Source of the DNA: Halobacterium sp. CBA1132
GTDB taxonomy: Archaea > Halobacteriota > Halobacteria > Halobacteriales > Halobacteriaceae
Assembly: GCF_001485535.1 (NCBI RefSeq)
Contig: NZ_BCMZ01000001.1
Location: forward strand, 1,736,001-1,800,000
Length of the DNA stretch: 64,000 nucleotides
Direction: 5' to 3'
Below are positions 3,365 through 15,087 of the stretch, in pieces. The notes under the pieces are model-generated. The model made no database searches, was not told where the DNA came from, and saw nothing but the letters and a program-made list of their open reading frames with translations. A program made the position numbers and the translations under genes. The stretch's first letter is position 1. The number at the start of each line of letters is the position of its first letter.

Positions 3365-4230
3365 GCATTCTAGTCGACGACGACACCCGCGTCGTGGTAC
3401 AGGGCATCACCGGCGGGGAAGGAAAATTCCACGCCGAACAGATGATGGAGTACGGGACGAACGTCGTCGCGGGCGCGGTGCCGGGCAAGGGCGGCCAGGA
3501 GGCCGCCGGCGTCCCGGTGTACGACACCGTCCACGACGCCGTCGCCGAGGAGGACGCCGACGCCTCGGTCATCTTCGTGCCGCCGGCGTTCGCTTCGGAC
3601 GCCATCTTCGAGGCCCTCGACACGGACCTCGACCTCGCGGTCGCCATCACCGAGGGCATCCCCACGCAGGACATGGCGAAGGTGAACAAGCGCCTGCAGG
3701 AGACCGACACGCGCCTGCAGGGGCCGAACTGCCCGGGCATCATCACGCCCGGCGAGGCGAAACTCGGCATCCTCCCCGGGAACATCTTCTCGGAGGGGAA
3801 GGTCGGGCTCGTCTCCCGCTCCGGCACGCTGACGTATCAGGTCGTGGACTCGCTCACGCAGCGCGGCATCGGCCAGACCACCGCCATCGGCATCGGCGGC
3901 GACCCCATCATCGGGACGGACTTCATCGACGCCCTCGAACTGTTCGAGGCCGACCCCGAGACCGAGGCCGTCGTGATGTGCGGCGAAATCGGCGGCGAGG
4001 ACGAGGAGGACGCCGCCGAGTACATCGCGCAGAACATGGACACGCCGGTCGCCGGCTTCATCGCGGGCCGCACCGCGCCGCCGGGCAAGCGCATGGGCCA
4101 CGCGGGCGCCATCGTCTCCGGCAGCGGCACCGGTACCGCCGAATCCAAGATCAACGCGCTCAACGAAGCGGGCGTCTCCGTCGGCGACACCCCCGAGGAA
4201 GTCGCGGACGACATCGAAGACCTGCTGTAG
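3361..4230 (+). CDS. sucD: Succinate-CoA ligase (ADP-forming) alpha subunit
   Basis: A 289-residue subunit carrying the Rossmann CoA-binding domain ([18 protein letters not shown] near the N-terminus), [14 protein letters not shown], and the phosphohistidine loop [13 protein letters not shown] near residue 245. That histidine shuttles the phosphoryl group between the nucleotide site on SucC and succinyl-CoA. Length and order are typical of the family. It follows sucC with a 4-nt overlap and is the last gene of the operon; a T-rich tract follows about 10 nt downstream. Confidence 0.97.
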
Positions 4231-4235
4231 CGGAC

Positions 4236-4256
4236 ACCGCCGTTTTTCTTTCGCGG
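4236..4256 (+). terminator. T-rich transcription end after sucCD
   Basis: A pyrimidine run GTTTTTCTTTC (around 4242-4252) begins about 12 nt after the sucD stop. Archaeal termination commonly uses such oligo-T tracts with no required hairpin. It is the only such tract close to the operon end. Confidence 0.45.
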
Positions 4257-4350
4257 GCCGCGCGACCGAGAGCCGCGGCTGCGTGCGGAGAAACGTGAGG
4301 ACGGAGCGCAGGTCGCTGCGCGCTCGGACACCCCTGACCGAGCCACGCGA

Positions 4351-4377
4351 CCAGCGTGCTAACGCACACCACGCTGG
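4351..4377. repeat. Perfect 8-bp inverted repeat
   Basis: CCAGCGTG and CACGCTGG flank an 11-nt loop in the sucD-zinc ribbon intergenic region (about 290 nt with no gene). It could be a transcript-end hairpin or a protein site; nothing distinguishes these. Downstream, a TTTAC box near 4488-4492 is at promoter distance from the next gene. Confidence 0.5.
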
Positions 4378-4519
4378 CAGTTAGGTCCAACGCTCTCGGC
4401 CAGCAGTTCTGGTTCCGCGGTGGTCGAGCAGTAAACCGTCCTAACTCGGGTTAAACGGCGTAAAACCGAGGCCACTGAATCCCCCATTTACGGGCTAGCC
4501 GGGCGACCGCACGAACACG

Positions 4520-4717
4520 ATGACCACCGCCAGCCCCGACTCGAAGCTCCGGGAGTTCTGTGAGGACTGCGAGCGAACTACCCGCCACGCAGTCCGCATC
4601 GAGCTCCGCGTCGAGAACGCGGCCGTCGACAACCCCGGCTGCTCGCGGGAGCCCTACCGCGTGAGCCGGTGTCTGGTCTGCGAGACGACCGACGCGAGCC
4701 GGATGAGTGACGCCTGA
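4520..4717 (+). CDS. Small zinc-ribbon protein
   Basis: A 65-residue acidic protein with two cysteine pairs, CEDC near residues 14-17 and CLVC near 51-54, consistent with one structural zinc site (beta-ribbon). Such small haloarchaeal double-CxxC proteins are widespread but functionally uncharacterised. There is no enzyme domain. It starts with ATG about 30 nt downstream of an AT-rich box and stands alone, 44 nt before the methylase gene. Confidence 0.75.
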   Translation: MTTASPDSKLREFCEDCERTTRHAVRIELRVENAAVDNPGCSREPYRVSRCLVCETTDASRMSDA

Positions 4718-4761
4718 CGCCAGCGAAACGACTACGTGTCGGCGCGCGGACGACTGAGTGA

Positions 4762-5787
4762 ATGGAGACCACCCACCGCGTCCACGCCGGGGACGCCCGC
4801 GACCTCCCGCTCGCCGACGACTCCGTGGACCTCGTGGTCACGTCGCCGCCGTACCCGATGATAGAGATGTGGGACGACGTCTTCGCCGCGCTCGACCCCG
4901 CGGTCGGTGACGCGCTCGACGACGGCGACGGCGACCGCGCCCACGACCTGATGCTCTCCGTGCTGGACGACGCGTGGGCGGAACTCGCGCGCGTGCTCAC
5001 ACCTGGCGGCATCGCCGTCGTCAACGTCGGGGACGCCACGCGCAACCTCGGGCGCTTCCGCGTGTACGACAACCACGCGCGCATTACTGATGCTTTCCAG
5101 TCGCTGGGCTTCGACCCGCTGCCGGGCGTGCTCTGGCGGAAACCCGCCAACTCCGCTGCGAAGTTCATGGGCAGCGGGATGGTGCCGCCGAACGCGTACG
5201 TCACGCTCGAACGCGAACACCTCCTCGTCTTCCGGAACGGCCAGCGCCGCGAGTTCGAACCGCGCGCTGACCGCCGCTACGAGGCCGCGTACTTCTGGGA
5301 GGAACGCAACCGCTGGTTCTCCGACGTCTGGGACGACCTCAACGGCGAGCACCAGACGCTCGCCGAGCCCGAGTTGCGCGAGCGCTCGGCGGCGTTCCCG
5401 CTCGCGCTCCCCTATCGCCTCGTGAACATGTACTCCGTCTACGGCGACACCGTCCTCGACCCCTTCTGGGGGACCGGCACCACGAGCCTCGCCGCCGCCA
5501 TCGCAGGCCGGCACTCCGTCGGCGTCGAACGCGACGCCGGCCTCGCGGACGCCTTCGACGACCGCATCCGCGACGCCCCCGCGCTCTCCCGCGAATTCGC
5601 TGCCGACCGCCTCGCCGACCACCGCGCGTTCGTCGACGACACTGACGACGACTTCGAGTACACCGCCGACCACTACGACACGCCCGTCCGCACGAAACAA
5701 GAGCGCGGGATTCGCTTCTACGAAGTCACCGACATCGAACCGACGCTCGACGGCTGGGAAGCGACGCACGAACCGTACGAGGAGTAG
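4762..5787 (+). CDS. zim: Site-specific DNA methyltransferase, beta class (zim-like, probably N4-cytosine)
   Basis: A 341-residue amino-methyltransferase with circularly permuted motif order. Catalytic motif IV TSPPYPM is at residues 27-33, and the SAM-binding motif DPFWGTGTTSLAAA is near 233-246, with HSVGVERD after it. This beta order with SPPY is usual for N4-cytosine enzymes. Haloarchaea carry an orphan CTAG modification methylase (Zim) of this type; the match here is from recalled family resemblance and from its position next to sucCD, so CTAG specificity is inference. No restriction endonuclease gene is adjacent, which suggests a solitary, epigenetic methylase. Confidence 0.82.
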   Translation: METTHRVHAGDARDLPLADDSVDLVVTSPPYPMIEMWDDVFAALDPAVGDALDDGDGDRAHDLMLSVLDDAWAELARVLTPGGIAVVNVGDATRNLGRFRVYDNHARITDAFQSLGFDPLPGVLWRKPANSAAKFMGSGMVPPNAYVTLEREHLLVFRNGQRREFEPRADRRYEAAYFWEERNRWFSDVWDDLNGEHQTLAEPELRERSAAFPLALPYRLVNMYSVYGDTVLDPFWGTGTTSLAAAIAGRHSVGVERDAGLADAFDDRIRDAPALSREFAADRLADHRAFVDDTDDDFEYTADHYDTPVRTKQERGIRFYEVTDIEPTLDGWEATHEPYEE

Positions 5788-5811
5788 CTGGGGTTCAATC
5801 GAAGCGAGACG

Positions 5812-5957
5812 GTCGGGGCGGAGTTGAACCGGAAGAAGACGGTCGCCTCGCTCCGCTCGGCGCTGCGTCTGCTAGGGTTCAACTCCGCGGCCCACCCACG
5901 GCAGTTATCTCACGCGAAGCGACACACGCGTCGCTTCGCGGTGCGAGTATCAGAGGA
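5812..5957. repeat. Tandem tRNA-end unit 1 (decayed tRNA-Val 3' copy plus hairpin)
   Basis: The unit opens with GTCGGGGCGGAGTTGAACC, identical to the complement of the T-arm and 3' acceptor strand of the adjacent tRNA-Val. An inverted partial copy GGTTCAACTCCGC lies at 5876-5888. A perfect 11-bp hairpin follows at 5913-5940 (CGCGAAGCGAC, 6-nt loop, complement). There is no anticodon arm, so it is not a functional tRNA. The next unit starts 150 nt later. Confidence 0.8.
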
Positions 5958-6101
5958 GTGGGTCGGGGCGGAGTTGAACCGGAGCGAGACGTGCTCGCTA
6001 CGCTGCGCGCGACTCGCAGGGTTCAACTCCTTCCGACCGCACACACCCTCGAACGACGCGAGCGACACGCTGGTCGCTCGCGGTCGTTGTTTCGGTAGAA
6101 G
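5958..6101. repeat. Tandem tRNA-end unit 2 (decayed tRNA-Val 3' copy plus hairpin)
   Basis: It has the same plan as the preceding unit. GTGGGTCGGGGCGGAGTTGA copies the tRNA-Val 3' end at 5958, an inverted GGTTCAACTCC lies at 6020-6030, and a 10-bp hairpin (CGCGAGCGAC, 6-nt loop, complement) lies at 6057-6082. The real tRNA gene begins with the same sequence 143 nt further on. The hairpin arms differ in sequence from unit 1 by compensated changes, so the structure appears to be kept. Confidence 0.8.
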
Positions 6102-6176
6102 TGGGTCGGGGCGGAGTTGAACCGCCGACCTGCTCCGTGTGAAGGAGCCGTCATAACCGGACTAGACCACCGACCC
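6102..6176 (-). tRNA. tRNA-Val (anticodon CAC)
   Basis: The reverse complement folds as a 75-nt cloverleaf. The acceptor GGGTCGG pairs with CCGACCC and discriminator A; there is a D arm with GTC/GAC stem; the anticodon stem GCTCC/GGAGC encloses TTCACAC (anticodon CAC, reading GUG); a 5-nt variable loop follows; the T arm GGCGG-TTCAACT-CCGCC completes it. No intron is present and CCA is not encoded. An AT-rich box (CTTAATGG on the minus strand) lies about 30 nt upstream of the 5' end. Confidence 0.96.
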
Positions 6177-6412
6177 GTACACCAAGTAGTACCCGCAGGC
6201 CGCCATTAAGACTTGCGTTTAGTCGTCGCGGGGGCGCGAGCACGAAACCACGCGGCGATGCCCGCCACCGATAGATTTTAGTTGTTTTGGGGTAACCTAA
6301 AACTCGTGCGGCGGACGCCGCCGGCCGTCCGACCGCGTCTGTCCCAGCCTGTCACCCGTCGGCACAACCACGTCCCGCACCGGGACGAAGGCATCATCTC
6401 GTCCGCACGTCG

Positions 6413-6949
6413 TCAGTAGGACGGCGACTCCTCGCGGACACCCGCTCTCAGATTCGCCAGCCGCGCGAACACGAACAGCGCGTCCGAGAGCCGGTTCAGG
6501 TACGCGATTGCGGTCTCGTTGACCTCGTCCTCGTGGTCGGCGAGCGCGACCGCCCGGCGCTCCGCGCGCCGGCAGACCGCTCGCGCGTGGTGGAGGCTCG
6601 CGCCCGCGTCGCTGCCGCCCGGCAGCACGAACGACTCCAGCGGCTCCAGTTGTTCCTCGCAGGCGTCGATCCACGCCTCCACCTCGTCGACGTGTTCGTC
6701 GTCGACGACAGGGTCGCCCTCGTCGGGTTCCGGATTAGCGAGGTCCGCCTGCACGACGTGGAGGTGGTTCTGCGCGGCCTCCAGGTACTCGTCGAGTTCG
6801 TCGACGCCAGTCGGTCGAACCGTCCCAAGCAGCGCGTTCACCTCGTCGACGGTGCCGTACGCCTCGATGCGGGGACTGGTCTTGGACACCCGCGTCATGT
6901 CACGGAGGTCCGTCTGCCCGCTGTCGCCGCGGCGCGTGTAGATTTTCAT
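6413..6949 (-). CDS. pduO: ATP:cob(I)alamin adenosyltransferase, PduO type
   Basis: A 178-residue protein beginning MKIYTRRGDSGQTDL, the PduO/MMAB ATP-binding N-terminus, followed by RIEAYGTVDEVNALLG, FVLPGG and the RAVCRRAERR helix that closes the active site. It adenosylates cob(I)alamin to make coenzyme B12 and also serves salvage. The ATG overlaps the stop of the upstream glutaredoxin gene (ATGA), so the two are likely one transcript. The chromosome also carries a structurally unrelated CobA/BtuR adenosyltransferase about 26 kb downstream. No copy of the cobalamin operator-like element is seen upstream of this pair. Confidence 0.93.
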   Translation of the reverse strand: MKIYTRRGDSGQTDLRDMTRVSKTSPRIEAYGTVDEVNALLGTVRPTGVDELDEYLEAAQNHLHVVQADLANPEPDEGDPVVDDEHVDEVEAWIDACEEQLEPLESFVLPGGSDAGASLHHARAVCRRAERRAVALADHEDEVNETAIAYLNRLSDALFVFARLANLRAGVREESPSY

Positions 6950-7185
6950 GCGAGCGTTCGTTCGACGTACGTCAGGATGTTCTCGCTCTCGGCCATCGTC
7001 ACGCCGTGGTCGTCGTCCACGAGCACGGGGACGCCGCGCTGGCCGCTCACGCGCTTGACCTCGTTGCGCTCGGAGTGCATCGCGTCCACCCACACCGTCT
7101 CGTAGTCGACGCCCGCGTCGTCGAGCGCGTCCGCGGCCTTCTCGCAGTACGGGCAGCCGTCCAGTTCGTAGAGTGTCAGACCCAT
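6946..7185 (-). CDS. Glutaredoxin-like protein
   Basis: A 79-residue thioredoxin-fold protein with redox motif CPYC at residues 11-14, a cis-proline segment RGVPVLVDDD and a C-terminal ILTYVERTL helix, as in glutaredoxins and NrdH-like redoxins. Likely a cytoplasmic thiol-disulfide carrier. Haloarchaea use gamma-glutamylcysteine rather than glutathione, so the reductant is uncertain. It is translationally coupled to the downstream adenosyltransferase, which requires cobalamin reduced to Co(I); a redox partnership is possible but unproven. Confidence 0.88.
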   Translation of the reverse strand: MGLTLYELDGCPYCEKAADALDDAGVDYETVWVDAMHSERNEVKRVSGQRGVPVLVDDDHGVTMAESENILTYVERTLA

Positions 7186-7260
7186 ACCTATCCCTTGGCG
7201 GGGCGGCGGGAAAGTAGTTGGTCCCGAACCGTTTTGGCCCCCGGCGTCGTGGCCTCGGGC

Positions 7261-7584
7261 GTGCCATCGAACCTCTTCGAGACGACGTTCGCCGTCGGCG
7301 AAGTCGTCGCCGCCGAACCGTTCCCGGACGCCCGCAAACCCGAACTCGCGAAACTCGAAGTCGACCTCGGCGACGAAGTCGTCCAGTCGGCCGCTCAGAC
7401 GGGCTACAACTACGACCCCGAGGACCTCGTCGGCCGACAGGTGCTGTGCGCGACGAACCTCGGCACGGTCAACATCGCCGGGTACGAGTCGGAGGTGTTG
7501 ACCGTCGGCGTGCCGGACGCGGACGGCAACCCCGTGCTCGTCGGGCCGGACGAGGACGTGCCGCTGGGCGGCGAACTCTACTGA
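7261..7584 (+). CDS. tRNA-binding OB-fold protein (CsaA/EMAP-II-like)
   Basis: A 107-residue single-domain protein starting VPSNLFETTFAVGEVVAAEP and containing KLEVDLGD, GRQVLCATNLG and GVPDADGNPVLVGPDEDVPLGG. This is the Trbp111/CsaA-type tRNA-binding OB fold found alone or appended to methionyl- and phenylalanyl-tRNA synthetases. It probably binds tRNA or acts as an export chaperone; the sequence does not decide. GTG at 7261 was preferred; another in-frame GTG lies 12 nt upstream. Confidence 0.82.
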   Translation: MPSNLFETTFAVGEVVAAEPFPDARKPELAKLEVDLGDEVVQSAAQTGYNYDPEDLVGRQVLCATNLGTVNIAGYESEVLTVGVPDADGNPVLVGPDEDVPLGGELY

Positions 7585-7633
7585 CAGCGGAGGTGACTCG
7601 GTGCCGCTGGGTTCTCGACGCCGACCGAACCGC

Positions 7634-10600
7634 TCAGCCGGCGACGCGGCGCCCCAGAACGAAGACGAGCAGCGCGGTCAGGAGCGCACCAAGCATCGCT
7701 TCCCCCGCCGCTAGGAGTCTCGCCGCCGTTCCGACAGGGCGAACACCCCCGAATCCGAGCGTGGAGAACGTCACTACGCTGAAGTAGAGGTTCTCCACGA
7801 AGACGCTCGCTCCCTCCGGCGTCGCCAGTGCCGACCACTTCGACACGCCGGGCGTGTTCAACTGATTCCCGCCGCTGATTCCCGACAGCGCGGTGTAGAA
7901 CACCGCCCAGAGCGTGACGACAGCGGCCGACGCCACGCCAACGCGACTAAGTTTGTGGCCGTACCCCGTCGTCGCACCCATCAGCCAGTTCCCCGCCCAC
8001 CGGCCGGCCGCCCGCCCTCGCTCGAACAGTCCCCCGTCACCGTCTACGGCCGCCTCCCCGTGCCGCCGGCGTCGGTACCGCATCTCGTTGATGAAGAATC
8101 CGCGGCGGGCAGTGAGGTCGCCGGCGCCGGCTGCAGCGTTCCGTGCCTTCAGGTACGTGTTCTCGAGGATGGACGGGGTTTCCTCACGCGGCGACTCGGT
8201 CGGTGTCTCGGGGTCGATCAGCGGCCCCATCCCGGCCTCCGCGAGTTCCTCGACGGTCTCCGCGGAGAGGTCCTCGGAGTCGTCCGCCACGAGCGATTCG
8301 ACAGCCTCTACCGGGACGTTCAGTTCGTCCAAGAGGCTCTCCAGAATATCCTCCCGGTAGTTTATCGGTTTGTCCTCGGTCAAGGCCCCGAACAGCTCGC
8401 GGAGTTCCGCGACGCGGTCCGCGGGCTCCGTCTCCGGACGCTGCAGGTCCACCGCCGTTTCGTGGATGCGCCACTGGTTCGCGGTCAGTTCGTCCTTGAA
8501 CGGACCGAAATCGAACCCCTCGTAGCTCGTGTTCATGAGCTTCACGTGGTCGAGCACCGTCACCGAGGGCGCTTCGGTCCAGATTCGTACCGTGCCGAGG
8601 GTCGCTTCGGTGAAGTCGAAGGCGGGCGTGTTCGATCTCGGTAACCGGATGTCTCCGTCGTCGACAGTCGCGCCGACGGCGTCGAAGTACCCGCTGTCAC
8701 CCGTCGTGCTGGTGTCGAGCGCGCTCAGCGACGCTATCGACGCCTGCCTGATGTCCACGTAGGACTCGAACGTGGATTTGTCGAGCAGCAGGCCGTCCCG
8801 GCAGGTGCTCCCGTAGAAGGACGTCTCGCCGGTGACGGTGCAGCGAAGGAGCACGCACTCGCCGAGGAGGTCCGCGGCCTCGAACGTGAGGGGGCCGCGG
8901 AACTCGGTAGCCATCACAGACATTCCCCGGACTGTCGACTGCTCGAACGTGACTTCGCCCTCGAACGTCGCGTCCGGTGCGTGGACGGCGTCGTCTACCG
9001 AGATGTCGTAGCAGTTCAGTTCACCGGCGACCGACGCGTCGCCGAGGTTGAACACGCCCTCGACACGCGAACTACTCACGTCGACGTCCCCGTGGAAGGT
9101 GCACCCGAAGAAGCTGAGCGTGTCCCCGAAATCGGCCGCGTCGAAGTCCGCGTCCTCGTGGAAGGTCGCGTTCTGGTAGAGCAGGCTCCCCTCGGTCGTG
9201 ACGTTGAAGAACTCCACGTCCTCGTAGAACTCGGCGTCGGTGAACAGCCCGCTGTCGTCAAGCGTCAGCCCCGAGAACTCCGCGTGGTCGTAGAACGTCG
9301 CGTCTGAGGCCAGTAGCTTCCCGCGGATGGTCGCGTCGTAGAAGTCGACTGCACAGAGTAAGTCGGCGTCCGAGAACTCCACCCGGTTGCGCGCGAGCAC
9401 GTCCCGGAAGGACGCCGCCGTGAACGCGAACGCGTCCGTCAGCGTCACCGTGTCATCGAACGTCGCGCCGTCGAACGTGAACGAGACGGCGCTGGCGCCG
9501 TCGAAGTTCGCGGTACTCCCGAAGTCGGCGTGGCTGAAGTCCGCGCCGAACAGCGTCGCGTCGGCGAACGAGACGGCATGCTCGAAGCGGGTTTGCGTGA
9601 AGTTACACTGTCCCAGCACGTGGACGCCCCGAAAGTCGAGGGGGCGCTGGCTGGCGGTGTCGAGGGTAAGATACGACAAGTCGAGGCGTTCGAAGCGCGA
9701 GCCGACGAACCGCGGAGTGTTATCCGACTCGTTGAGTTCCCCGAGGAGGGCCTCCCGGACGTCACTGTGGGACTTCTCGGTCACGCTCGCGTGGAAGATG
9801 CAGTACTCTGATTCGCCGTGGGTCGACCGGTCGCAGTTCCAGCGGCCGTCGACGTCGGGGTGGTCGCAGGCATACCGGCACTCGTCTCCGTCGCGTTCGT
9901 CGACCGGCTCCGGGTGGCTCCACCCGTGCGTTTCGGCGTTCAGCCGCCCGTTGAGTACGTCGACGATGCGTCGGGCCTCGGTGGCGAGCTGGGCCGGGAG
10001 CGGCGTGTCGGTGGCGTCGTCGAACGTGCGCCGGAGTTGGTCCGCTGCCTCGTCCCCGAGCGGCGGGTCGTCAAGGGGTGGGTCCTGTCCCTCGAAGTCA
10101 CGCAGGTGTTCCAGTACCTCGTTGATAGCGTCCACGAAGTCGTTGACAGCGTTGGCGCCGGTAGTGCCCGTCAGTTCGCCAATGAGGTCGTCGACATCGC
10201 TGGTCGCGTCGACGGAGGGATACGCGTCGGAGATTGCCTCACGGACGCGCTCGGGGTCGGCCTCGGCGACGCGTTCGAGGGCAGTTACAGCGGCGCCGCT
10301 CGCGCGCTGTCCACCGTCGCGAGCGACCGCCACGAGCGCGTCGAGAAGGGAGTCCGGCGCGTCCTCCGGCGGGAGGTCGGCCGCCGCTCGCGCCGCGTAA
10401 TACTTGGCGTGTGGAGTGCCGCGTTCGAGCCGCGAGGCGAGCGCGGGCGCGTACTCGGCGACTCTGTCGGGGTCGTGGACCGCGAGCTTGTTGAGAAGGT
10501 TCAGCACGGCCTCTCTGGCCTCGTCGTACTGCTCTTCCCCCGGGTCGACGCGGGCCGCGATGCGGTCGAGAGCGTCGAGTGCGGGCGCCGGATGCCCGGC

Positions 10601-10864
10601 GTCGGCTAAGTGTTGGAAGCCAAGTAGCGCGTTGTAGCGCACGACGTTGTTCGGGTCCTCCACCCGGTCGAGCAGGGCCGACGCGTGCTCACCGACCCGC
10701 TCCGGGTACTCCGACGCGAGTCGGCTGTAGGCCCTGACGGCGAGATTCCGCTCGGCAGCCGTCTCGGCGTCCAGTGCGTCGGCAAGTTCGTCGAGCGCCT
10801 CGACAGCCGACGCCGGATTCTGTTCGGCCGCTTGGACGATGGACTGGAGTTCGGCTTCGTCCAT
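7634..10864 (-). CDS. HEAT / Cys-motif / pentapeptide-repeat / pore-loop ion channel fusion protein
   Basis: A 1076-residue multidomain protein. Residues 1-210 are helical HEAT-like repeats (AVEALDELADAL, RVGEHASALLDRV, RVAEYAPALASRL). Near 325-360 a Cys/His cluster CRYACDHP...WNCDR...YCIFH suggests zinc binding. About 385-740 is a long pentapeptide-type beta-helix (recurrent A-[DN]-[LF]-x-x and FDGATFDD, FYEDVEFFN). The C-terminus has TM1 (about 975-997), a pore loop SVVTFSTLGFGGV (about 1031-1043) and TM2 (1046-1070), resembling a two-TM K+ channel filter with GFG in place of GYG. ATG at 10864 is preferred because TTTATTA (complement of 10901-10907) sits at promoter distance and overlaps the longer start. 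Ligand and ion are unknown; the cytoplasmic repeats probably gate the pore. Confidence 0.85.
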   Translation of the reverse strand: MDEAELQSIVQAAEQNPASAVEALDELADALDAETAAERNLAVRAYSRLASEYPERVGEHASALLDRVEDPNNVVRYNALLGFQHLADAGHPAPALDALDRIAARVDPGEEQYDEAREAVLNLLNKLAVHDPDRVAEYAPALASRLERGTPHAKYYAARAAADLPPEDAPDSLLDALVAVARDGGQRASGAAVTALERVAEADPERVREAISDAYPSVDATSDVDDLIGELTGTTGANAVNDFVDAINEVLEHLRDFEGQDPPLDDPPLGDEAADQLRRTFDDATDTPLPAQLATEARRIVDVLNGRLNAETHGWSHPEPVDERDGDECRYACDHPDVDGRWNCDRSTHGESEYCIFHASVTEKSHSDVREALLGELNESDNTPRFVGSRFERLDLSYLTLDTASQRPLDFRGVHVLGQCNFTQTRFEHAVSFADATLFGADFSHADFGSTANFDGASAVSFTFDGATFDDTVTLTDAFAFTAASFRDVLARNRVEFSDADLLCAVDFYDATIRGKLLASDATFYDHAEFSGLTLDDSGLFTDAEFYEDVEFFNVTTEGSLLYQNATFHEDADFDAADFGDTLSFFGCTFHGDVDVSSSRVEGVFNLGDASVAGELNCYDISVDDAVHAPDATFEGEVTFEQSTVRGMSVMATEFRGPLTFEAADLLGECVLLRCTVTGETSFYGSTCRDGLLLDKSTFESYVDIRQASIASLSALDTSTTGDSGYFDAVGATVDDGDIRLPRSNTPAFDFTEATLGTVRIWTEAPSVTVLDHVKLMNTSYEGFDFGPFKDELTANQWRIHETAVDLQRPETEPADRVAELRELFGALTEDKPINYREDILESLLDELNVPVEAVESLVADDSEDLSAETVEELAEAGMGPLIDPETPTESPREETPSILENTYLKARNAAAGAGDLTARRGFFINEMRYRRRRHGEAAVDGDGGLFERGRAAGRWAGNWLMGATTGYGHKLSRVGVASAAVVTLWAVFYTALSGISGGNQLNTPGVSKWSALATPEGASVFVENLYFSVVTFSTLGFGGVRPVGTAARLLAAGEAMLGALLTALLVFVLGRRVAG

Positions 10865-10993
10865 GCAGGTACACTCAGATAGTCTACAGTTCTGTGGTGT
10901 AATAAACACACCTGCCGCGGGGCGTCGCTCGTCCGAAACGGCGAGGGAGCGGGCACCAGAATCCAGCGAAAGTCGCGGGCGACAGTTCCCCGG

Positions 10994-11806
10994 TCAGTCC
11001 TCGCCGGCTTCGACGACCTCGTAGCCGACGTTGCGCTCGCGCAGCGGGTCGGTGTGTTCGGAGAGCCGGTCGGTCGTCGCCACGAGCAGCACGGACAGTC
11101 CCTTGCTGGCGGCTTCCGGGACGGCTTCGGCGGTGCCGAAGCGGATGTCAGGTTCGACGCCGGCGTCCCGCACGGCGACGAGCGCTTCGACGCCCGCAGC
11201 AGCCACGCGGTCGTGGTCCGCGAGGCGGACTTCGACGGTGCCGTCCGCGACCGCGCGACTCCCGCCCTCTCGGACGGCGGGGACCGAGAGCACGGTGACC
11301 TCGCCGGGCTGGTAGTCGAGCATCCCCTCGAACTCCGCGGCGCCGACGTCCTGCCCGGGTTCCGCCGAGGTGACCGCGACGGCGGTGGCGCTGCCGACGT
11401 CGCCGGGCGTGGCGTGCATCACGCCGTCCTGCATCGCGAGCGATACCCGTTGGCCTTCCTCGATTGCGGCGGTCGCGATAGCGGTGTCGACGTCGACCTC
11501 CTCGATGACGTTCTCGGAGACGTACTCCACGAACGACCGGAGGTCGTCGGTCTGTGAGATGAGCCAGTCGACGCCCTCCTTGGTGACCTCGTAGCGACCG
11601 CGGCCGTGCTTGCGCACGTGGCCGTCCTCGACGAGGTCGCCGAGGTAGTCGCTGACGGCTTGGGCGGTGACGCCGATTGCTTCCGCGATTTCGCGCTGGC
11701 TGACCGCTGGCTGGCGTTCGGCGATTTCGACGAGTATCTGGTAGCGCGTGGCGTTCCGCTTGCTCCGGAGAACCCCCAGCTCCCCGACGGTGCTCGAATC
11801 GCTCAT
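10994..11806 (-). CDS. HTH transcriptional regulator with C-terminal sensor-like domain, candidate cobalamin regulator
   Basis: A 270-residue protein with an N-terminal winged helix-turn-helix (ATRYQILVEIAERQPAVSQREIAEAIGVTAQAVSDYLGDLVEDG, residues 18-60), then a roughly 200-residue alpha/beta domain with no motif I recognise. It reads divergently from the cbi operon across about 150 nt. Two copies of the inverted-repeat element shared across the cobalamin locus lie in that gap, one 20 nt from each start codon side. This makes it the best local candidate to bind that element, sensing cobalamin or cobalt; that role is inference from position. Predicted cytoplasmic. Confidence 0.8.
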   Translation of the reverse strand: MSDSSTVGELGVLRSKRNATRYQILVEIAERQPAVSQREIAEAIGVTAQAVSDYLGDLVEDGHVRKHGRGRYEVTKEGVDWLISQTDDLRSFVEYVSENVIEEVDVDTAIATAAIEEGQRVSLAMQDGVMHATPGDVGSATAVAVTSAEPGQDVGAAEFEGMLDYQPGEVTVLSVPAVREGGSRAVADGTVEVRLADHDRVAAAGVEALVAVRDAGVEPDIRFGTAEAVPEAASKGLSVLLVATTDRLSEHTDPLRERNVGYEVVEAGED

Positions 11807-11826
11807 TACTGCTACCTGAGCCGTCC

Positions 11827-11846
11827 CTAATTCAAGTATCTTTGTG
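11827..11846. promoter_or_regulatory. Cobalamin-locus operator-like element, site A
   Basis: CTAATTCAAGTATCTTTGTG, an imperfect inverted repeat of form TTCAA(S)-N4-(K)TTG. It lies 20-40 nt upstream of the regulator's ATG (minus strand) and shares its flanking CCTAAT with sites B and C. Confidence 0.6.
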
Positions 11847-11908
11847 TAAACTTCGCTCTCGCTTGCGCTACCGGCCGTTTCCCGGCACCTAACGAAAACC
11901 CACTTTCC

Positions 11909-11927
11909 CTAATACAACCAAAATTGT
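11909..11927. promoter_or_regulatory. Cobalamin-locus operator-like element, site B
   Basis: CTAATACAACCAAAATTGT, matching site C at 15 of 19 positions (18 of 22 when three flanking bases are added). It ends 29 nt before the cbiT ATG, so its right half overlaps the likely TATA region TTGTTTTAG. Confidence 0.65.
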
Positions 11928-11956
11928 TTTAGGCGCTACTGCTGTTGTGTTCGGTG

Positions 11957-12523
11957 ATGTCACAGACCCGACTCCCCCACGACGCCAAAGCGGGACCCAC
12001 CAAATCGGAGGTGCGAGCCGTCCTCCGGGCCAAACTCGCGCTCGGCCCGGACGACCACTTCGCCGAAGTCGGCTCCTGTACGGGTGCAGTCACGGCCGAC
12101 GCCGCCCGCGACGCTGGCCGCGTCACCGCCGTCGAGCGCAAGCGCGAGCGCGTCGAGACCACCGAACGGAACCTCGCGGCGAACGGCCTCGCGGACGCCG
12201 TCGACGTCCGCCACGCCGAAGCCCCCGACGGCCTCCCCGAGGCCGCCGACGCGCTGTTCCTCGGCGGCAGCCGGAACTACGAGGCCGTCCTCGACTACGC
12301 CGTCGACGCGGGCGTCGAGACGGTCGTGATGAACGTCTCCCGGCTGGAGGTCGCGGGCGCTGCCACCGAAGCGTTCCGCGAACGCGACCTCCTGGAGGAG
12401 GTCGTCCAGTTCCAGGTGAGCCACGGCTACGAGCTCGCTGGCGCGACCTCCTTCGACTCCCAGAACCCCGTCTACATGCTCGTCGGGAGCGCCACCGAGG
12501 ACGCCGCGGAGGGCGACCGATGA
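11957..12523 (+). CDS. cbiT: Cobalt-precorrin-6B C15-methyltransferase/decarboxylase
   Basis: A 188-residue class I SAM methyltransferase. GPTKSEVRAVLRAKL precedes motif I EVGSCTGAVTADAA (residues 37-50), then VTAVERKRERVETTERN, LFLGGSRNYEAVLD and VMNVSRLE. This fits CbiT, which methylates C15 and decarboxylates the C12 acetate of cobalt-precorrin-7/6B. The first gene of the cbi operon; ATG at 11957 is favoured over an upstream TTG by promoter spacing. Its stop overlaps the cbiL start. Confidence 0.93.
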   Translation: MSQTRLPHDAKAGPTKSEVRAVLRAKLALGPDDHFAEVGSCTGAVTADAARDAGRVTAVERKRERVETTERNLAANGLADAVDVRHAEAPDGLPEAADALFLGGSRNYEAVLDYAVDAGVETVVMNVSRLEVAGAATEAFRERDLLEEVVQFQVSHGYELAGATSFDSQNPVYMLVGSATEDAAEGDR

Positions 12524-13248
12524 CCCTCTACGGCGTCGGCCTCGGCCCCGGCGAAGCCGACCTCGTGACCGTGCGCGGGAAGCGCGTCCTCGAAACCGCG
12601 GACGTCGTCTACTCGCCCGGCCGGCTCTCGCGAACGGTCGCCACCGAACACGTCCCCGAGTCGCGCATCGGCGACCTCGACTTCCCGATGACCCGCGACC
12701 CAGAGGAACTCCGCGACGCGTGGCGGGACGCCGCCACGGAGGTCGCGCCGCGTGCCCGCGACGGGGACGCCGCGTTCGTGACGCTCGGCGACCCGAACGT
12801 CTACTCGACGTTCGGTCACCTCCGCCGCACGCTCGACGCCTTCCACCCCGACGTGGACGTGGAGGTCGTCCCGGGCGTCAGCGCGGTCACCGCGTTCGCC
12901 ACCGCGCTCGGCGTGGAAATCGACGCGGGCGCGGGGCTCGCGCTCCGCGAGGCCGCACAGGGAAACTCCCCCACCGGCCCGGACCGCATGATTCTGTTCA
13001 AGGTCACGGACGCGCCCGCGACCCACGAAGGCCTCGCGGACGCCGGCTACGACGTGACCTACGGCCGGCGGCTGTTCATGGAGCAGGGCGAGGAGCGCGT
13101 GACGAGTGACCCCACCGAAATCGCGGACCGGGACTACTACACGCTCGCGTACGCCGAGCGCGCCGACCTAGAGAAGCACCGCCCGACGGCCTTCGAGGAC
13201 GCCAGCGACGGCGCGGACGACGCCAGCGGGGTGGTCGGCGGTGACTGA
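12520..13248 (+). CDS. cbiL: Cobalt-factor II C20-methyltransferase
   Basis: A 242-residue tetrapyrrole methylase (class III SAM fold) with N-terminal GVGLGPGEADLVTVRG, central FVTLGDPNVYSTF, and VEVVPGVSAVTAFATALG. The length and YSTFGHL segment fit CbiL/CobI, which adds the C20 methyl early in the anaerobic route. Overlaps cbiT by 4 nt and cbiF by 8 nt, so the operon is tightly coupled. The acidic Ala/Asp tail is typical of halophilic versions. Confidence 0.92.
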   Translation: MTLYGVGLGPGEADLVTVRGKRVLETADVVYSPGRLSRTVATEHVPESRIGDLDFPMTRDPEELRDAWRDAATEVAPRARDGDAAFVTLGDPNVYSTFGHLRRTLDAFHPDVDVEVVPGVSAVTAFATALGVEIDAGAGLALREAAQGNSPTGPDRMILFKVTDAPATHEGLADAGYDVTYGRRLFMEQGEERVTSDPTEIADRDYYTLAYAERADLEKHRPTAFEDASDGADDASGVVGGD

Positions 13249-14116
13249 CGCGACCGACCCGCAGGACGCCATCGACGCCGCCAGCGAGCGCCGCGAGCGC
13301 GAACGCGACGAGCGCGTGTACGAACACACTGCGGGCGACGTGCAGGACGGCGTCCCGTTCGTCGGTGCCGGACCCGGCGACCCCGGCCTGCTCACGGTGA
13401 CCGGGAGAGACCTGCTCGCGGACGCCGACCTCGTGGTGCACGCGGGGTCGCTCGTGAACAGCGAACTCCTCGACGACTACTGCGCGGACGCCGAGACCGT
13501 CTCCTCCGTGGGGAAGGATCTCGAAGAACTGGTGCCGCTAATGGGTGACGCCTACGAGTCCGGGAAGACGGTCGTCCGCCTGCACAGCGGCGACCCCGCA
13601 ATCTACGGCGCCGCGCTGGAGCAGATGGACGCCCTCGAACAGGAAGGCGTCCCGACGTACATCGTCCCCGGGGTCACGTCGGCGTTCGCGGCGGCGGCGA
13701 CGCTGCGCACGCAACTCACGCTGAACGGCACCGCGAACCACGTCGCGTTCACGCGGCCGCAGGGCCGCACGCTGGACGCCGACGACGACCACATCTCGGA
13801 GTTCGTGGAGATGGGCGACGTGACGACCTGCATCTACCTCGGCACGCACGCCATCCCGGACGTGATGGACCGCCTTCTCGACGACGGCCACGACCCCGAC
13901 ACCCCCGTAACGGTCGTCTACCACGCGTCGTGGCCGGACGAAGACGTCATCGAGGGCACCGTCGACACCATCGGGGAGAAAGTCGAGGACGCGGGCTATC
14001 GAGCCTCCGCGCTCGTCGTCATCGGCGACGCCGGCGCGGGCGCGAACTACGACCGCTCGTACCTCTACGGCGACTGGGCGAACCGCAGCGGCAGCGAGAG
14101 CGAGGCAGACGACTGA
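13241..14116 (+). CDS. cbiF: Cobalt-precorrin-4 C11-methyltransferase
   Basis: A 291-residue tetrapyrrole methylase with a roughly 35-residue charged N-terminal extension, then PFVGAGPGDPGLLTVTGR, VVRLHSGDPAIYGA, VPGVTSAFAAAA and ASWPDEDVIEGT. The SGDPAIYGA and trailing YHASWPDE segments are CbiF/CobM hallmarks. It methylates C11, preparing ring contraction products for CbiG. GTG start within the end of cbiL. Confidence 0.93.
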   Translation: MTDATDPQDAIDAASERRERERDERVYEHTAGDVQDGVPFVGAGPGDPGLLTVTGRDLLADADLVVHAGSLVNSELLDDYCADAETVSSVGKDLEELVPLMGDAYESGKTVVRLHSGDPAIYGAALEQMDALEQEGVPTYIVPGVTSAFAAAATLRTQLTLNGTANHVAFTRPQGRTLDADDDHISEFVEMGDVTTCIYLGTHAIPDVMDRLLDDGHDPDTPVTVVYHASWPDEDVIEGTVDTIGEKVEDAGYRASALVVIGDAGAGANYDRSYLYGDWANRSGSESEADD

Positions 14117-14118
14117 CC

Positions 14119-15087
14119 ATGAGCACTGACAGCAACGACGACACTGGAGCGCACTGTTCGACGCCCGACTCCGACGGCGAAGTAGCGGAGGACATCGCCA
14201 TCGTGGCGTTCGAGCGCAAGATGAGCACCGCCGAGGACATCGTGGCGGGCATCGGCGACCGCTACGACTCCATCGAGATTCTGGAGTACCACGGCGACGT
14301 CTTCGAGGAGTACTGGGGCGAGTACGACTGCTTCGTCGGCCTGATGGCTTCCGGCATCGCGATGCGAAAGACCGCGGGGCTGCTCGACGACAAGTGGGAC
14401 GACCCCGCGGTCGTCGTGGTCGACGAGGAACTGACGTGGGCGATTCCGCTCACGGGCGGCCACCACGGCGCGAATCAGGTCGCCGACGACCTCGCGTCGA
14501 TGGGCGCCGTCCCGGCGATGACCACGGCCAGCGAGGCCGCGGGCAAGCAGGGCGTCGAGGAGCGCGCGAAGGCCCTCGACGCGCACGTCGTGAACGGCGA
14601 CTCCACGGTCGCGACGAACCTCGCCGTTCTCGACGAGAACCTCGGCCCGGTCGCGCGCCTCGACGGTCCCGCGGCCGTCCTCGCTGACGACGACGTGACC
14701 GTGTTGCAGCGCAACGGCGACGACGGCGTCGTCCTCGGCACGGGCAGCGTCTCCGGCGCGGCCAAAGACCAGTTCCTCGACGCGTGGGAGGCGAGCCTCG
14801 AACCCACGGACTACGACCTCGACGACGTGGAGTTCGTCGCGACGGGCACCCGGAAGGAAGAGGAAAACGGGCTGCTCGCCGCCGCCGAGGAACTCGATTT
14901 GGGCGTCGTCTCCTTCGAGAAGGAGACCCTCGAAGACCACGAGGGCCCGACGCCCTCCCGGTCGAAGGAACTCATCGGCTGGCCCGGCATCGCGGAGGCG
15001 TCGGCCATCGCGGGCGGCCGCGAGCACGACCTGCTCGTCGAGAAGGAGCGCTACGACGAAGCGGTCACGGTGGCGGTGGGACGATGA
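14119..15087 (+). CDS. cbiG: Cobalt-precorrin-5A hydrolase
   Basis: A 322-residue CbiG. An N-terminal domain with [51 protein letters not shown] (the conserved GGHxGAN loop), a linker, and a C-terminal domain with [21 protein letters not shown] and [17 protein letters not shown]. The enzyme opens the delta-lactone of cobalt-precorrin-5A, releasing acetaldehyde. ATG begins 2 nt after the cbiF stop. Confidence 0.95.

Follow-up and report, generated by a model that had tools for sequence, protein, structure and literature searches.

Haloarchaea keep a very high cytosolic K+, and a K+ channel with a large sensor therefore bears on the control of K+ and membrane potential in these organisms. KirBac3.1, KcsA and MthK share the arrangement TM1-pore helix-T-x-G-[YF]-G-TM2, and 2TM K+ channels carry a C-terminal Kir or RCK control domain. 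Another ion channel, Hailong HalA, is regulated by DNA and acts in defence. Membrane-stress modules have been described in which spermidine-synthase-like genes, DUF2617 or K+ channels are combined in one operon (Ravi et al. 2024, PMC11237479). In a window of 64,000 nucleotides from Halobacterium sp. CBA1132 (the whole stretch of DNA that was analysed), we found a gene whose product has the pore arrangement of these channels but in which an N-terminal HEAT region and beta-helix stand instead of the C-terminal control domain. The pore is thus of a known kind, and the order HEAT-Cys-beta-helix-pore is, as far as we found, apparently undescribed: in the open part of PubMed Central we found neither this order nor, among papers on pentapeptide repeats and channels, a description of the family. 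We consider it probable that the protein is the subunit of a homotetrameric K+-selective 2TM channel and that the N-terminal repeats control this channel from the cytosol.

The gene starts on the minus strand with an ATG at 10864, reads without interruption until its stop codon (7634-7636) and encodes 1076 amino acids, and the plus strand of the same interval holds many stops. A longer start is offered by a GTG at 10909, but the ATG is favoured because TTTATTA, a putative promoter element resembling a TATA box, lies at 10906-10900. A chance ORF on the wrong strand was ruled out by the Pfam matches, conservation and structural models. The preliminary description of one 1076-residue chain, in which two repeat scaffolds precede a 2TM pore that has a GFG filter, is borne out by the ORF, Pfam, profiles, AlphaFold and orthologues; an artefact of two genes was ruled out since the reading frame is continuous here and three other genomes also encode the fusion in a single ORF. 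The parts of the gene and its surroundings are given in Table 1.

Table 1. Features of the gene and of the segment that holds it (positions in the window).
Feature	Residues	Positions	Strand	Basis
Insertion of 3,409 bp that separates two convergent genes and contains only this gene		7585-10993		Four same-genus genomes
Whole gene, HEAT - Cys motif - pentapeptide-type beta-helix - coupler - 2TM K+ pore	1076 aa	7634-10864	minus	Pfam, single-ORF orthologues
TTTATTA resembling a TATA box, some 40 nt upstream of the ATG		10900-10906	minus	Sequence
HEAT-type alpha-solenoid	1-214	10223-10864	minus	HEAT_EZ, orthologues, AlphaFold helical hairpins, Foldseek
Acidic, mostly disordered linker	215-326	9887-10222	minus	Composition, low pLDDT
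Cys/His motif C329, (C333), C344, C355, H358	327-360	9785-9886	minus	Family motif
Pentapeptide-type right-handed beta-helix rod	385-765	8570-9712	minus	Pentapeptide_3, AlphaFold
Acidic helical segment after the rod	766-895	8180-8569	minus	AlphaFold, composition
Conserved helical coupler	896-971	7952-8179	minus	Family conservation, AlphaFold helices
TM1	972-993	7886-7951	minus	Hydropathy, AlphaFold (972-992)
Pore helix and predicted K+ selectivity filter TLGFG		7748-7819	minus	Ion_trans_2, profile alignment to KirBac3.1
TM2, ending ...GRRVAG	1046-1075	7640-7729	minus	Hydropathy, AlphaFold

Exactly two TM segments are seen in the hydropathy profile (975-993 and 1051-1069); they flank TLGFG (residues 1035-1039, positions 7748-7762), and no cytosolic domain follows TM2, whereas about 970 residues, largely made of presumed protein-binding repeats, precede the small pore. 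Ion_trans_2 (PF07885) was matched with an E-value of 5.6e-10 (39.4 bits vs a cut-off of 22.5; 45.2 bits in the genome scan), and a profile of ten C-termini matched solved K+ channels, with KirBac3.1 as the best (E=3.8e-7) and Shaker, Kv1.3 and KcsA among the others, the TLGFG region being aligned with TIGYG of KirBac3.1. The pore helix was modelled at residues 1016-1033 by AlphaFold; the full-chain model, built from an alignment of 16 rows, has a mean pLDDT of 76, and a separate model of residues 860-1076 agrees with it. Foldseek superposes the C-terminal model on KirBac3.1 with a deviation of about 2-2.5 A across 102-107 columns, at E-values of only 0.01-0.1. A selectivity filter at the C-terminus, as first proposed, is thus predicted by the filter sequence, Ion_trans_2 and the modelled pore fold together.

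The coupler, with helices modelled at residues 897-966, is conserved better than any other soluble region in the family and is recognised by ENTYLKARN..., an R/K-rich helix and NWL..TTGYG before TM1. The [TS][TC]GYG motif in this last stretch (query residues 962-969) is conserved in the family and resembles a K+ filter, yet it lies before TM1 and outside the pore. Between the coupler and the rod, helices were modelled at low confidence (787-876), and Asp and Glu make up 30% of residues 807-895.

For the rod itself, Pentapeptide_3 was found in eight stretches (E=8.4e-20, 71 bits vs a cut-off of 27), and no other protein of the genome carries this domain. AlphaFold models a beta-helix from about residue 385 to 763, with pLDDT of 92-97 over much of the rod and a rung period of 11 residues. 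A simple period-5 score for Phe and Leu was no better than that of shuffled rods, and the maxima of Phe-Phe spacing fall at lags of 5, 6 and 11 (z of 2.5-3.0); together with the 11-residue rungs, these lags indicate that the rod alternates steps of 5 and 6 residues. The pentapeptide helix of the preliminary description therefore stands as a modelled beta-helix matched by Pentapeptide_3, but not as a strict pentapeptide repeat. The DNA mimicry that had been suggested for it finds no support, since a sequence search with the rod returned none of the solved structures of Qnr/MfpA type, the pentapeptide DNA mimics, and its Phe spacing alternates between 5 and 6.

In the N-terminal half, HEAT_EZ scores just below its cut-off in the query (E=6e-5, 23.9 bits vs 27), but HEAT_EZ, HEAT and HEAT_2 are well over theirs in the orthologues (E=1e-9 to 1e-18), whose N-termini share 34-42% identity with that of the query. 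Helical hairpins were modelled at residues 3-214 in the full chain, and the solenoid model resembles those of importin-alpha, Pds5 and adaptin type (Foldseek, E-values of 0.004-0.04). The linker that follows has a pLDDT of 45-58 over most of its length, with disorder around residues 235-322, and Asp and Glu account for 26% of residues 216-340. Beyond it, C329, C344, C355 and H358 fit the signature C-x-[YF]...WxC...CxFH, which is present in 51-53 of the 90 family members found, and C333 falls outside these four; the motif may form a Zn site.

The family is widespread. Some match to the query was found for 62 of 117 relatives and in 251 of the 391 genomes of the class, many of these matches being confined to the pore or to the HEAT part, and a model of coupler and pore (A2) gave 86 matches at E-values of 2.2e-49 or better in the 391 genomes. 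The query itself scores E=1.1e-67 with A2 in the genome scan; it is also a row of that model, and independent support therefore comes from the cross-matches and not from this score. The single protein, used as query against the genome contigs, gave no match, and the broad family alignment gave no usable search pattern. A typical member, labelled at NCBI only as 'pentapeptide repeat-containing protein', holds the Cys motif, beta-helix, coupler and pore within 700-860 amino acids, and across the family the Cys motif and the coupler are separated by a rod region of about 210 to 1118 residues. An apparent N-terminal extension of 340 residues at locus L096 was rejected as a domain, being an Arg-rich open frame without an ATG.

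The fusion of HEAT to the channel was found only in the query and in four other genomes. In three Halorubrum-type genomes (Halorubrum sodomense, Halorubrum sp. GN11 and genome G118) it is a single ORF within a conserved neighbourhood, and the copy of Halomicroarcula sp. SYNS111 is frameshifted. A quick coupler-pore tree with weak support places the query near the HEAT-fused and 1100-1400-aa Halorubrum-type members and away from a branch linked to spermidine synthase. The earlier remark that a channel tied to such a sensor would be unusual is thus right for the HEAT addition, which is rare, but not for the beta-helix and channel, which are widespread in haloarchaea. In Halorarius halobius (locus L106), a separate, divergently encoded HEAT protein of 1143 amino acids (3392-6820, minus strand) lies 143 bp from a HEAT-less channel gene (6964-9534, plus strand), and its HEAT region has no BLAST match to that of the query.

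The genes that flank the query gene, ending at 7584 and 10994, are only 2-10 bp apart in four genomes of the same genus (G002, G004, G011 and G012), at about 88-93% flank identity with the query genome, which points to a clean and recent one-gene insertion of about 3.4 kb; gain in the query genome is a simpler reading than loss. The G+C content of the gene (0.65-0.70) is similar to that of its surroundings. The upstream neighbour is a winged-helix regulator (Pfam), and the neighbours are read as core genes, with cobalamin synthesis past this regulator and, on the opposite flank, a cobalamin adenosyltransferase and tRNA-Val. The window also holds an N6/N4 DNA methylase (4762-5784, plus strand) that is conserved in the genus, and a homologue of it lies near a channel gene of Halorarius halobius (L107:10737-11735).

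Sequence and prediction show the single ORF, the domain order, the filter sequence, the predicted pore fold, conservation and the one-gene insertion, and in the K+ channel reading we infer the tetramer, K+ selectivity in practice, N-terminal gating, a ligand and a physiological role. Since there is no C-terminal cytosolic domain, control should come from the N-terminal side. The HEAT solenoid and the Cys/His motif would bind a partner or ligand, the beta-helix could serve as a rigid arm, and the conserved helical coupler would transmit the movement to TM1, by which the gate would open; a conserved coupler at a variable distance from the Cys motif is what would be expected if a rod or spacer acted on a gate that is itself conserved. 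K+ would then leave down its gradient and the membrane potential would be held near the K+ equilibrium, which in a salt-in organism might release K+ for stress or volume control. Given a K+-type filter, the open channel should fix the membrane potential and let K+ out rather than collapse all gradients, and the general ion leak that had been envisaged is not upheld, since TLGFG predicts a K+-selective flux.

In regards to function, the gene could alternatively be a polyamine-linked membrane-stress channel that belongs to the same system as the operons of speE and DUF2617 on another branch of the family, its HEAT region replacing partners that are supplied there by neighbouring genes. A cluster of four genes, in the order Tat-signal protein, spermidine synthase (PF01564), DUF2617 and DUF3060-like protein, adjoins the pentapeptide channel in 20 of the 90 loci (L054, L055, L129, L134 and 16 others), a count in which a few loci appear twice because they come from two collections, and its position beside that branch suggests membrane or osmotic stress. 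Parallel operons occur in bacteria, where polyamine- and PspA-linked types with a ligand-sensing K+ channel bring together, in related arrangements, a spermidine-synthase-like gene, a K+ channel gene and DUF2617 (PMC11237479). However, whereas the haloarchaeal relatives show this same association of speE, DUF2617 and channel, the query stands alone: spermidine synthase and DUF2617 are absent next to it, the cluster is missing from its branch, DUF2617 is absent from its genome, and the spermidine-linked members branch elsewhere on the tree. We consider this explanation possible but unlikely for the query.

Somewhat less likely still is a single-gene immune effector, in which the repeats would sense an invader or its damage and the opening of the pore would stop the growth of the infected cell. 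An accessory one-gene insertion with a patchy distribution would suit such a role, as would three relatives. At L098:6765-10052 (minus strand, genome G148), an Mre11-like phosphoesterase domain that retains its metal motifs (DTH, GD, GSHD, GHRH) takes the place of HEAT before the Cys motif, the rod and a 2TM end, close to an SF1 helicase with a match to MkoA, a defence protein (E=1.8e-83); this member, however, has lost its filter. Inside a prophage at L102, a distant pentapeptide and K+-channel gene with TLGFG (7972-9354, plus strand) is carried as opposite-strand cargo between an integrase gene and lysozyme/tail (lysis) genes. In Halocatena marina, a STAND NTPase with TPRs (L119:2491-5847, minus strand) lies near a resolvase-like gene and a tandem pair of channel genes that lack the filter. 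The nuclease domain of the L098 protein shares 34-37% identity with haloarchaeal Mre11-type proteins, which are present in 143 of 145 genomes; a weak match to a type IV restriction enzyme is also found near this gene, and the L102 prophage is alphaproteobacterial-looking.

Among the listed structural matches of the coupler-pore model, Hailong HalA (PDB 9nyi) has the highest TM-score by query length (0.44, Foldseek E=0.11), a weak fold likeness that we treat as a lead only, HalA not being among the best 60 of 119 sequence matches to solved chains. The CRISPR effectors Cam1 and Cap1 likewise fuse a soluble sensor to TM helices, with a tetrameric pore proposed (PMC10808066), but Cam1 has a CARF sensor, one TM helix per subunit and no reported K+ filter (PMC10808066), and its fold is unlike that of the query. 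Against an immune role, no defence gene lies beside the query within the window, its HEAT orthologues sit in a conserved neighbourhood, and no specific defence match was obtained for genes near other family loci. The best match of the query in PADLOC-DB, to OloA (E=0.007, 13.7 bits), is confined to the HEAT region and insignificant; nothing similar was found in 50,697 phage records, nor in viral contigs searched with a subgroup alignment. A K+-selective pore, moreover, need not depolarise the cell. For this gene we favour stress or K+ control over immunity.

A GYG-type filter is missing in 23 of the 90 family loci (about a quarter; e.g. L053, L037, L039, L068 and L119), a count that leaves out L054, where a longer tail caused a false call, and these members keep the coupler and TM helices, from which it follows that selection keeps more than pore function. 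This, and the very large repeat rods, would agree with a membrane-anchored scaffold whose TM pair is simply an anchor and whose repeats assemble proteins at the membrane, but we regard that as improbable, for T-L-G-[YF]-G and the pore helix are retained in the query and most close relatives, and the filter-less members cluster on the tree, as would be expected of a derived state (in a scoring that counted the filter-less L037, L040 and L154 as intact through the TGYG before TM1). Tandem same-strand channel genes occur at L103 (Halorubrum sp. GN11; 5860-9549 and 10397-14416), L113 (4896-6077 and 6154-9561) and L091 (5296-9303 and 9942-14105), each pair with one TLGYG and one degenerate TLEYV. 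The degenerate copies form one supported clade and stand in tandem with intact ones, which suggests heteromeric channels.

Beyond the K+ channel subunit proposed here, it is conceivable, though speculative, that the family represents modular haloarchaeal K+ channels gated by stress or invasion, in which exchangeable N-terminal sensors (HEAT, an Mre11-like DNA-end nuclease or a bare Cys motif) would drive the conserved coupler and pore by way of a beta-helix lever whose length varies, and filter-less tandem paralogues would assemble with intact subunits to tune conduction; the ideas of exchangeable sensors and filter-less partners are drawn from few loci. The beta-helix lever, if true, would be a gating design that we did not find described among K+ channels, and the natural variants (HEAT-less, Mre11-fused and filter-less) make the mechanism testable, all the more as the family is present in tractable species such as Haloarcula hispanica. 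The protein HISP_RS16945 of this species (WP_014030774.1, pHH126) shares with the query the Cys motif, the beta-helix and the 2TM K+ pore, and members of its type have a TYLKAK coupler and a CGYG before TM1 as counterparts of those in the query. They differ from it in that they are without HEAT, are 700-860 amino acids long, carry a TIGYG or TVGYG filter and often lie beside spermidine synthase and DUF2617.
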